A stretch of DNA of 64,000 nucleotides from positions 146,236 to 210,235 of the forward strand of contig CALHPK010000009.1 in the NCBI GenBank assembly GCA_938036315.1. The letters are read 5' to 3'. Position numbers and translations under genes: made by a program. Source of the stretch: an uncultured bacterium. Its GTDB lineage: Bacteria; Calescibacteriota; Calescibacteriia; Calescibacteriales; Calescibacteriaceae. Of the stretch, positions 25,531 through 29,956 are shown piece by piece (within the stretch, counting starts at the first letter, position 1; every line of letters begins with the position of its first letter). The notes below the pieces were generated by a model. It did no database searches, was not told where the DNA came from, and saw only the letters and a program-made list of their open reading frames with translations.

Positions 25531-26634
25531 TCATTCATATATGAATGTTTTCAATTCATAGTCAAGAGGAGTTCTTGCTCCGAACTCTGTGTGGAATGTT
25601 CCAGGACAGTTAAGTCTCAATCTTTTTCCGTTAAGCTCAAACTCAATGATACTACTTTCAATTTCACTATTATGGCAAAATGCAAGATCCCCATCTGGAT
25701 CAGTATAAGTTGCCATAATGAAGTTCCCAGGATCACCCTCCATTCTCATAAAAAAGTTCATATATTTTGACTTCAATTCCCAGAGGGACTTTTCTTTTGA
25801 GAACTCCCAACTTTCACTATTGGTGATAATGTTTTTAAAATCGTTGAACTTGATTAATCTCCCTTTATATTTCAGATAAAACAGACTGATTGGTGGGAGC
25901 TGAAGTGGTCCTCTTTTTACTACTACTGTTAGCCCTTCAAAAAATGTATCCTCGAGGAGTTCTCCGTTTTCGTCATAAATTGAGTTGCAGTGTCCCCATA
26001 CCCATTTGTAAGCATGTTTTTTACCCCATATGTGAGTTTGATACCCTCTACCACTAAGCGGAGATATATCGCATATGATCTCTCCTGTATCTATATTTTT
26101 AAGCTTTATGTATCCTGTGAATTTTAAATCTGGATTTGGCGAGAGAACCGAAGTTTCTATTGGGAGGTAGTATGCGGCATCTGGTAAGTGTTTGAGGATA
26201 TAATTATTAGGAGAGAACTCGAGTTTCCACTCTGCCTTCACGTTTTTGACAACTATGGAGCCTGAACAGTGTCCTTCTCCGAGTTCGTTTTTCTCTCCGA
26301 TTCTTATGATGAACTCTTTACTGTCGCATCTAAATTCGCTGAGCGGAAATTTTCTGCAGAGCCCTAAGGGAGGTTGCCCCTTTTTGAATATGCTAATCCA
26401 CACACCAGCCCAGTCGTTGAAACCATCCTCAGCCACATTTATTGTATACCTTATCCAGAACCCATATTCCTGGGCATTTCCCGTGATATACCAGACTTCA
26501 TAGTGTCCTCTGGACTTTCCTGCCCACCTTGGTAAATTCTCTATAACCGATACATTACTTTTCTTTTTTTTACTGCTTGCAAGTTGCATCAATTTGAAAA
26601 TTAGCGACCGCATTTTTGATGAAAGATTTAGCAA
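25531..26634 (-). CDS. CrtC/AttH lipocalin-like (tocopherol-cyclase-like) protein
   Basis: GHYEVWYITGNAQEYGFWIRYTINV..., SPLSGRGYQTHIWGKKHAYKWVWGHCNSI, beta-rich throughout; resembles CrtC-type lipocalin proteins. Confidence 0.5.
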   Translation of the reverse strand: MLNLSSKMRSLIFKLMQLASSKKKKSNVSVIENLPRWAGKSRGHYEVWYITGNAQEYGFWIRYTINVAEDGFNDWAGVWISIFKKGQPPLGLCRKFPLSEFRCDSKEFIIRIGEKNELGEGHCSGSIVVKNVKAEWKLEFSPNNYILKHLPDAAYYLPIETSVLSPNPDLKFTGYIKLKNIDTGEIICDISPLSGRGYQTHIWGKKHAYKWVWGHCNSIYDENGELLEDTFFEGLTVVVKRGPLQLPPISLFYLKYKGRLIKFNDFKNIITNSESWEFSKEKSLWELKSKYMNFFMRMEGDPGNFIMATYTDPDGDLAFCHNSEIESSIIEFELNGKRLRLNCPGTFHTEFGARTPLDYELKTFIYE

Positions 26635-26644
26635 AAAATATTAT

Positions 26645-29600
26645 TTATGCAAAAAATTTAAGTAATTTTGTATCGAACGAAGGATATTTGCTTAGTATAG
26701 CGTTTAGCTCTGTTTCCATATTCTCCTCCTCTTCTTTATACATCAAGAAATCTATTTTTGTATTTGAAACTATTTTGAGCATATTCAGAAGAGCGATTAT
26801 CTTTTCTATGTCCTTTTTTGCCTGATCCAGAACTGCCTTACCTTCCCTTTTTGCCTCATCTACTATCCCATCTATAAGGAGAAGTTGACTCCGTGCGATT
26901 TTATATTCAAAATCATCCTTAACAGGCTCAGCTTTCTGAAGGTATTGTTTGGCTTTATCGTAATTTTTCTTCCCTAAGTATGCCAAAGCATATAAAAGAT
27001 TGAATCTTGCCATCTTTGATTCCACAGGATTTTCTCTGACAAGCTCGTCCAGCGTATCTAATGCTGATTCATAGTTCCCAAGGAAGATATCTATAAGAGC
27101 ATACGTGCTGAGCGATTCTATAAGACTGTATTTATCGCCTATCTTTCTGAAAATTTCTATTGCTGACTTTGCCATCTCCTGTGATTCACTAAATTTTCCA
27201 GTTTCGAACAAAATTTGCGCCATATTGATCATAGCTATGGCTTCACCTCTGGTATCAGAGATAGTTTTTGCCATTTCAAGATACTCTTTCATATATGTAA
27301 GTGAAACTTCCAGATCTCCTAAAGCATAAAGCACAGCAGCATAATTTGATATAGCCACACCTTTCAACCTCAGGTTATTTATTTTTTGCGTTACCTCATA
27401 AAACATGGAAAAGAAGCCCCTTGCTTTTTGGTAATCTCCAAGTGAGAAATAACATCTACCTATAGCATTTGCTGCATCTGCATATATTTCTGGATAAATT
27501 TTTTTAATCTCATCTGATGCAAGAGATAGGGCTTTCTCGCCAAACTTTATCCCATCCTTTGGTTCGCCTTTTTCCACAAATAGATGGCACATCAGAGTTA
27601 ATGCTTTCACCAATTCTGCTCTAAATTGTATGTCATCTTCTTTAGTTGACTCCTCTATTATCTGCTCATATATTTTCTGAGCTGACGAAAAGTTCCCGAG
27701 AATTTGTTCACAATCCCCAACCCATCTTTTAGCTCTGATCAGATCTATCTTTCTTTCTGCACAGCTTACAGCTCTGTTGAAAATCTCACATGCTTTCCCT
27801 ATTTCTCCAATATTGTATAAAAGTCCCCCGTAATCCATAAGTACTCCATATAGTTTCTGAGGGTCGGTTAATTCTGTCTTTGATTTAGAAAGGTTCTGAA
27901 GAGCTTTTTCAAATAAGCTCTTTGAAAGAGGGATATTAAGCTTTGATTTTGCAATTCTTGCAGCTTCTGAATAAGCTTCAAAAGCTGATAGAAATTTTTC
28001 TGATCTTTCTGCTTGGAATCCAGCTGCGGATAAAAACTTTATATCATCTCCTGAAATTTCAGCCGTGACGTTGTAAAGTTTGGAGTGCAATTCAAGCTTC
28101 TTGCTCTTCAAGAGCATATCATATAAAACTTCTTTGAATATTTTCTGCCTTAAGTTGATGATTTCTCCATCATCAACTATTATATTTTTATCTTCAAGAT
28201 CTTTCAGAATTCTTCCTAATTCTATTCTCTCTTTTTCGAAAAATCTGATCAGAATTTCTTTGTAAGGAATTTCAAGGCAGGATATAACCTGTAAAACATA
28301 CTTTGAAAGTTCTGGGAGAGAGTCTATAATAGATAGAGCAATCTGCCTTGCACCTATAGCTTTGGGTATGGCTGATGTATCCTTTATTCTGGCTTTACCA
28401 TCTTCTATTGTTATAGCTCCTTTTTCCTTAAGCAAGTTCACAAACTCAAAAATGAACAACGGGTTACCTTCAGTTTTCTCCCATATAAACTCAAGTGTTC
28501 CGCGCTCAATTTCTGCTCCCTCATCCAGAATATATCTAACAAATTTCTCAGTTTTCTCCAAATCAAGGCTCTCAAGCTTGACTATCTCCCAATCACTAAA
28601 TTTTTTCAAGTCTATACCAGCGTAAGACAAACCAATTATTACAGAAAAATTTGGCCTTCTCAAAGGTAGATTAATAAAGAACTTCTGAGAATAATTATCT
28701 ATACTGTCAAAGTCATCTATTGCTATTATTTTGCTATGATGGATCTTTGATAATATCCCATATATAGCCTCCTCTATTTTATCTTCAAGAACATCGGGGG
28801 ACAGATACCTAAGCGGAGAATCAGGGAAAATAACCCCGAATATATAACCAAGAAGATGATAAGAAATACTTAATTTTTCGGATAGGTTTATGATATCTCT
28901 TTCAAGCGAAGTTGAGTGCACGGGGATTAACCTTTTAATCGTGCTATATGGTTCATCTTTTGAGCCCTTTGTAGCTTTTACTACCCCGTCTACCTCCTGA
29001 GATATGAATTCGATAAAGCTCGAGATTCCCATACCCGGATCTCCAACTACTACGACAAAATTAGGATGTGGTCTCGAAAGGATTTCTTTTGTTTGCTCTA
29101 TTTCCTCATCCCTTCCAATGAGAACTTTGACTTGTTTCTTCCCCTTGATTTGAAAAATTCTTACAGGCTTTTCCTTACCTTTGAGTTTTATATCCCCCCA
29201 CGGTAGAAAATCAAAAATATGGGATGTAAGAAGGTAAGTATTCTCATCAACCAAAAATTGCCAACTTTGCGATTCTTCCTCCAATCTTTTTGCTATATTC
29301 ACTGTATCTCCCATTGCTGTGTAGTCTCTTGGGTTATCAGAGATAGAACCGACTACAACCTCGCCCGTTGCAATACCTCCGTGTATAGATATATCTGAAT
29401 AATTCTGCCTTATAAACTCCGATATTTCCAAAGCTGTTTGGACTGCCCTTTTGGTGTCATCACCATAAGCTCGGGGAGCGCCAAACAGAGCCATAATTTC
29501 ATCTCCTATGAATTTATCCACATATCCACCGTTTTTTTGAACTATCTTAGCAAGATTATTAAGAACCTCTCCTATAAAGGCTCTCAGCTCCTCTGGGTCA

Positions 29601-29956
29601 AGCTTTTCCGATAGTGATGTGAATCCCGATATATCCGCAAAAAGTATAGATATTGGTCTTCTTTCACTTTCTAATTTCTGCCTCTCCCCAGATAGCTTTT
29701 CAACTTGCCTTTGTTTTTCGGGTTCCTGCTTTTGGAATTGCTCAAGTTCCCTTGCTTTATAAATCTCCTCTGTTGTGTACTGTTGGGCTTTCTCTACCTG
29801 CTCTGGTTTTTCTTCCTTTTCAGCATCGGATTTCTCAGCAGTAGTTGGTTTTGCTTCTTTTGGAGTAGAAGTAAGTTTGGTTCCACACTCACCGCAGAAT
29901 TTAAAATTTGGGGGATTCTCAAACCCACAGCTCGGACACTTTTTGGGCTCCTCCAT
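26645..29956 (-). CDS. Zinc-ribbon + class III nucleotidyl cyclase + AAA/NACHT-like ATPase + TPR protein (soluble adenylyl cyclase-like)
   Basis: CPSCGFENPPNFKFCGECG; cyclase ISILFADISGFTSLSEKLDPEELRAFIGEVLNNLAKIVQKNGGYVDKFIGDEIMALFGAP...DYTAMGDTVNIAKRLEEES; degenerate P-loop VVVVGDPGMGISSFIEF; Walker B-like KIIAIDDFDSID; C-terminal TPR repeats. Confidence 0.92.
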   Translation of the reverse strand: MEEPKKCPSCGFENPPNFKFCGECGTKLTSTPKEAKPTTAEKSDAEKEEKPEQVEKAQQYTTEEIYKARELEQFQKQEPEKQRQVEKLSGERQKLESERRPISILFADISGFTSLSEKLDPEELRAFIGEVLNNLAKIVQKNGGYVDKFIGDEIMALFGAPRAYGDDTKRAVQTALEISEFIRQNYSDISIHGGIATGEVVVGSISDNPRDYTAMGDTVNIAKRLEEESQSWQFLVDENTYLLTSHIFDFLPWGDIKLKGKEKPVRIFQIKGKKQVKVLIGRDEEIEQTKEILSRPHPNFVVVVGDPGMGISSFIEFISQEVDGVVKATKGSKDEPYSTIKRLIPVHSTSLERDIINLSEKLSISYHLLGYIFGVIFPDSPLRYLSPDVLEDKIEEAIYGILSKIHHSKIIAIDDFDSIDNYSQKFFINLPLRRPNFSVIIGLSYAGIDLKKFSDWEIVKLESLDLEKTEKFVRYILDEGAEIERGTLEFIWEKTEGNPLFIFEFVNLLKEKGAITIEDGKARIKDTSAIPKAIGARQIALSIIDSLPELSKYVLQVISCLEIPYKEILIRFFEKERIELGRILKDLEDKNIIVDDGEIINLRQKIFKEVLYDMLLKSKKLELHSKLYNVTAEISGDDIKFLSAAGFQAERSEKFLSAFEAYSEAARIAKSKLNIPLSKSLFEKALQNLSKSKTELTDPQKLYGVLMDYGGLLYNIGEIGKACEIFNRAVSCAERKIDLIRAKRWVGDCEQILGNFSSAQKIYEQIIEESTKEDDIQFRAELVKALTLMCHLFVEKGEPKDGIKFGEKALSLASDEIKKIYPEIYADAANAIGRCYFSLGDYQKARGFFSMFYEVTQKINNLRLKGVAISNYAAVLYALGDLEVSLTYMKEYLEMAKTISDTRGEAIAMINMAQILFETGKFSESQEMAKSAIEIFRKIGDKYSLIESLSTYALIDIFLGNYESALDTLDELVRENPVESKMARFNLLYALAYLGKKNYDKAKQYLQKAEPVKDDFEYKIARSQLLLIDGIVDEAKREGKAVLDQAKKDIEKIIALLNMLKIVSNTKIDFLMYKEEEENMETELNAILSKYPSFDTKLLKFFA

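Follow-up and report, generated by a model that had tools for sequence, protein, structure and literature searches.

A conserved STAND module without the Walker A lysine in class IIIb-type nucleotide cyclases of an uncultured bacterial phylum

STAND proteins, among them Apaf-1, plant NLRs, MalT, and full-length sAC, are regarded as nucleotide-driven switches, and canonical STANDs of the MalT/Apaf-1 type bind ADP or ATP through the lysine of the Walker A motif. The open reading frame at positions 26645 to 29956 of the window (the whole 64,000-nucleotide stretch of DNA analyzed here) raises the question of what such a module does when it is joined to a nucleotide cyclase and this lysine is gone. 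The first-pass annotation, made from the letters alone, had read the product as a zinc ribbon, class III cyclase, STAND/AAA ATPase, and TPR protein with intact cyclase residues and an isoleucine in place of the P-loop lysine. The reading frame, its coordinates, and all of the motifs quoted at that stage are present in the window sequence.

The open reading frame lies on the minus strand, as do all features of the protein given below, and encodes 1,103 amino acids from an ATG that is directly preceded by an in-frame stop. Pfam searches and the ortholog alignment returned the same domain order as the annotation, with the ATPase region now refined to a STAND NOD. A single zinc ribbon (Pfam Zn_Ribbon_1; residues 6 to 28, positions 29873 to 29941) opens the protein, while the four orthologs of the protein carry two in tandem. 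It is followed by a charged, fast-evolving linker (residues 30 to 97, positions 29666 to 29869) with a mean pairwise identity of 28% and by a class III (IIIb-type) cyclase domain (residues 98 to 272, positions 29141 to 29665), which was delimited by alignment, PDB sequence matches, and a Pfam Guanylate_cyc match at residues 100 to 270 (E value, 3.6e-25). The STAND NTPase module, comprising nucleotide-binding (NBD), helical, and winged-helix parts (residues 279 to 660, positions 27977 to 29122), was assigned with AF2 and Foldseek; its Pfam match, AAA_16 at residues 279 to 430 (E value, 8e-6), is weak and falls under the curated cutoff. The remainder is a TPR solenoid (residues 661 to 1103, positions 26648 to 27976) with Pfam TPR_12 and TPR_MalT matches at about residues 830 to 1027 and helical hairpins in the predicted model. 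The full-length AF2 model was built from five rows, and the cyclase is poorly modeled in it. An NCBIfam search of the window protein gave no match near the cutoff.

The Walker A motif is degenerate (GDPGMGIS, residues 305 to 312, positions 29021 to 29044), and the annotated lysine replacement was confirmed as Ile311, encoded by ATC at positions 29026 to 29024. Each of the five genomes that make up the phylum sample, all of one family and all incomplete (82 to 86%), encodes one ortholog of the whole protein, 44 to 50% identical to the window protein; that of G001 is split across two contigs. The lysine position is occupied by isoleucine in the window's genome (G000) and in G002 and by valine in G003 and G001, while the G004 codon is NTA, which specifies Ile, Leu, or Val and cannot encode Lys. 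The phylum orthologs thus include no close homolog with GKS or GKT at this site. Lysine is found in 0/5 phylum members versus 67/68 STAND domains of other phyla, the latter being the top-scoring matches of an NTPase-region profile rather than a random sample. Only one outside domain in the survey departs from Lys in its Walker A, locus L304 (G239:C20), which reads GELGVGRSRL and has Arg instead. In a maximum likelihood tree of 73 rows, the five phylum sequences group as a single clade (support, 100/100) with a long stem branch, so that one ancestral loss of the lysine suffices. The loss is a family-wide trait of this phylum's cyclase-STAND protein. A scan of the named-genome contigs did not find further orthologs and returned only distant STANDs and many short ClpB-like matches, and in a scan of viral contigs, the matches were confined to short stretches around the P-loop.

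Other nucleotide-contacting positions are in part retained. The glycines of GxxGxG, Ser312, Asp414, and the GxP-like GNP motif (residues 497 to 499, positions 28460 to 28468) are invariant in the alignment of the five orthologs. The annotation had also described the Walker B-like segment (IIAIDD, residues 410 to 415, positions 28712 to 28729) as kept, and this stands for the invariant Asp414 but not for the second acid, which is Asp in the window protein only (S/N/N/N in the other orthologs) and Asp in 53/68 outside domains. Two further differences were assigned by motif position and analogy, not from a solved complex. The end of the sensor-1 strand (SVIIGLSY, residues 438 to 445, positions 28622 to 28645) has an arginine in 0/5 family members versus 54/68 outside STANDs, and the MHD-like position of the winged-helix domain (WHD) is Gln604 (positions 28145 to 28147), with Gln in 5/5 of the family and mostly His (44/68) or Ser (18/68) outside. 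The loss of the lysine is the strongest signal; the losses of Arg and His are weaker, because each of them is also seen in some outside STANDs that have the Lys.

An AF2 model of residues 275 to 665, computed from 54 alignment rows, has a mean pLDDT of 93.1 and places strand beta1 (residues 300 to 305), a loop, and a helix starting at residue 311 in canonical P-loop geometry, which rules out a P-loop located elsewhere in the domain. A Foldseek search with this model ranked Apaf-1 (3sfz) first (E value, 1.3e-10) and also matched MalT (8bob). On the strength of the model and these matches, the NTPase region is a STAND NOD by fold, and its membership appears to be one of fold and descent rather than of a working P-loop. 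dN/dS was estimated from a single close pair (G003/G001) that does not include the window sequence; the cyclase has a value of 0.054 and the linker one of 0.58, while the NTPase core (0.105) and the lid/WHD (0.102) lie between them. Values of about 0.10 in the core and lid/WHD indicate that the STAND domain is maintained and is not decaying.

The cyclase domain looks catalytically complete. As the annotation had proposed for its metal and catalytic residues, Asp108, Lys148, Asp152, Thr213, Asn220, and Arg224 are all present in the window protein, and none of them varies within the family. In an alignment of 19 homologs, the two metal-binding aspartates (Asp108 and Asp152) do not vary, and Thr213, which makes up the substrate-recognition pair with Lys148, is the same in all 19 rows; the transition-state Asn220 and Arg224 are likewise invariant. 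Thr213 assigns the domain, by residue type, to class IIIb, and its best PDB sequence match is CyaB (3r5g). PADLOC matches to Pycsar cyclases were put down to the shared cyclase domain.

Taken as a whole, the protein is best read as an active class IIIb cyclase under the control of a STAND module conserved as a pseudo-NTPase, a reading to which we assign a probability of roughly 0.7. The enzyme would be cytoplasmic, probably an adenylate cyclase working as a homodimer, and would be regulated through a TPR solenoid to which a ligand or partner binds. The STAND core would act as a folded hinge or scaffold and relay the state of the TPR region mechanically to the cyclase, without the ADP/ATP exchange and hydrolysis of canonical STAND proteins, and the product, cAMP, would pass to cyclic-nucleotide-binding proteins of the same genome. 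The annotation's view of an ATPase converted to a non-hydrolyzing sensor or scaffold holds as far as a family-wide, Lys-less form under purifying selection is concerned; that the module does not hydrolyze nucleotide we strongly infer. A lysine lost once, purifying selection on the module that lost it, and an apparently intact cyclase together amount to a natural experiment on whether a STAND core can serve as a relay in the absence of nucleotide. The more far-reaching proposal that these proteins are phylum-wide cyclases whose STAND switches purely by TPR ligand or partner binding, independently of nucleotide and with a second-messenger output, is tentative, and we hold it to be somewhat less probable than its opposite.

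The main rival of the pseudo-NTPase reading is a lysine-free nucleotide sensor, in which the STAND domain would bind ADP or ATP without being able to hydrolyze it and would remain a ligand-dependent switch. The GxxGxG glycines with the serine, the Walker B Asp, and GNP could then hold the nucleotide, and a basic residue from elsewhere might assist; one candidate is Lys341, which is invariant in the family and uncommon outside (6/49). The retention of the glycines, the serine, and GNP would also fit such residual binding and counts against the pseudo-NTPase reading. However, a hydrophobic residue at the lysine position in all five orthologs, the missing sensor-1 Arg, and the MHD-like Gln all speak against phosphate binding, and we consider the lysine-free sensor unlikely. 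Much less probable is a relaxed module, in which the cyclase alone would matter and the NTPase domain would drift as a part that the protein can do without. The long stem branch and the lower mean pairwise identities of the NTPase core (46%) and TPR region (41%) relative to the cyclase (79%) would agree with drift, but the dN/dS values disfavor neutral decay, the fold-defining motifs are kept, and the reading frames are intact in the window protein and in three full-length orthologs. A misread or misassembled P-loop codon might be suspected in a window drawn from an incomplete, multi-contig assembly; the probability of such an error is negligible, as five genomes agree on a non-Lys residue by different codons (ATC, GTA, and NTA), which refutes it for the whole family.

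A separate alternative concerns the input of the cyclase, which the annotation had linked to bicarbonate through the threonine. The class assignment survives, but the bicarbonate response is not supported: Thr213 is common to nearly all of the homologs compared and therefore carries no special bicarbonate message. Bicarbonate binding by human sAC depends on Lys95 and Arg176, and loss of either charge strongly lowers the response, while many animal sACs without one of these residues, such as those of sea urchin and salmon, respond to pH instead (PMC12867704). By manual alignment only, Lys148 falls at the Lys95 position and Lys223 at the Arg176 position. The window protein has a single cyclase domain according to Pfam. 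At position 223, all five orthologs have the lysine, in contrast to the Ala, Ser, Asp, or Glu of other class III cyclases. Lys223 may be a lead on a bicarbonate site; it belongs to the family-specific stretch NIAKRLEEES (residues 219 to 224 at positions 29285 to 29302). Together with Thr213, these residues would favor a cyclase that responds to bicarbonate as ADCY10 does. Set against them are the near ubiquity of the threonine, the position of the sAC site between unlike C1 and C2 domains where the window protein has a single cyclase domain, and the need of human sAC for both charges. We regard a bicarbonate response of the ADCY10 kind as improbable, more so than a lysine-free sensor.

Comparison with known systems places the protein between several of them. 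Full-length sAC (ADCY10) likewise combines a class III cyclase with a following STAND/P-loop region in one soluble protein, but it has two unlike cyclase domains where the window protein has one, and the window protein lacks the P-loop lysine. sAC is not known to have an N-terminal zinc ribbon. What the P-loop does in cyclases of the sAC type is itself unsettled, as no effect of any tested nucleotide specific to the P-loop region was seen in the full-length human enzyme (PMC12802110). Two bacterial cyclase-STAND (AAA_16)-TPR proteins, L006 (G007) and L007 (G038), have the same domain order and are 25 to 26% identical to the window protein over the full length, and L007 also resembles it in zinc-ribbon-like motifs at the N terminus; unlike the window protein, both have an intact GKT/GKS Walker A. 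The predicted NTPase fold resembles those of MalT and Apaf-1 by Foldseek, whereas the output is a cyclase and not DNA binding or an apoptosome, and the cyclase domain resembles those of CyaB (3r5g) and CyaC (2w01), whose regulatory domains differ. In MoxR-vWA ternary systems, one conserved component is the iSTAND, a STAND domain without catalytic activity (PMC7159879). The window STAND differs in being fused to a cyclase and TPRs, which are not reported iSTAND partners, and no adjacent MoxR or vWA gene was found among the neighbors tested with Pfam. The sAC/STAND cyclase architecture and inactive STANDs elsewhere are already known. No cyclase whose conserved STAND is Lys-less came up in the literature search, which was limited to open-access sources and so is only weak evidence that none has been described.

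No conserved operon partner of the cyclase gene was found among the neighbors compared in the five phylum genomes. The neighbors in sister genomes include an acyltransferase (G002 and G004) and AcrB (G003 and G001), and among all of those tested, the ones with a Pfam match encode an acyl-CoA dehydrogenase, CbiX, acyltransferases, AcrB, AIRS, and an aminotransferase; the others match nothing in Pfam. The downstream gene in the window (positions 25531 to 26634, minus strand) has no Pfam match and a listed start about 10 bases past the cyclase stop. Orthologs about 60% identical to it occur in all five phylum genomes, located elsewhere, on other contigs; they align only from residue 10 to 29, so the true start probably lies 3' of the listed TTG.

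Candidates for the downstream output are available in that all five phylum genomes encode proteins with cyclic-nucleotide-binding domains. One such protein, whose sequence was read in two genomes (L268:1021-1740, minus strand, and L311, G000:C16:48400-49900), has the canonical phosphate-binding cassette GEIxAILxxxRTATCIA and is a possible cAMP effector, as judged from its motifs. The region after its cyclic-nucleotide-binding domain matches Pfam FliG_C in the G001 copy (E value, 1.4e-7), an unusual combination. The window's genome also contains two more class III cyclase-like genes, L314 (G000:C6:48600-51200) and L315 (G000:C14:3600-5400), of which one has an N-terminal region that is transmembrane and sensor-like and the other is followed by hydrophobic segments. 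Outside the phylum, another phylum represented by four genomes of 2 to 3 Mb (G034, G057, G058, and G059; loci L231 to L260) has 25 to 42 STAND-profile matches per genome, an apparent large expansion.
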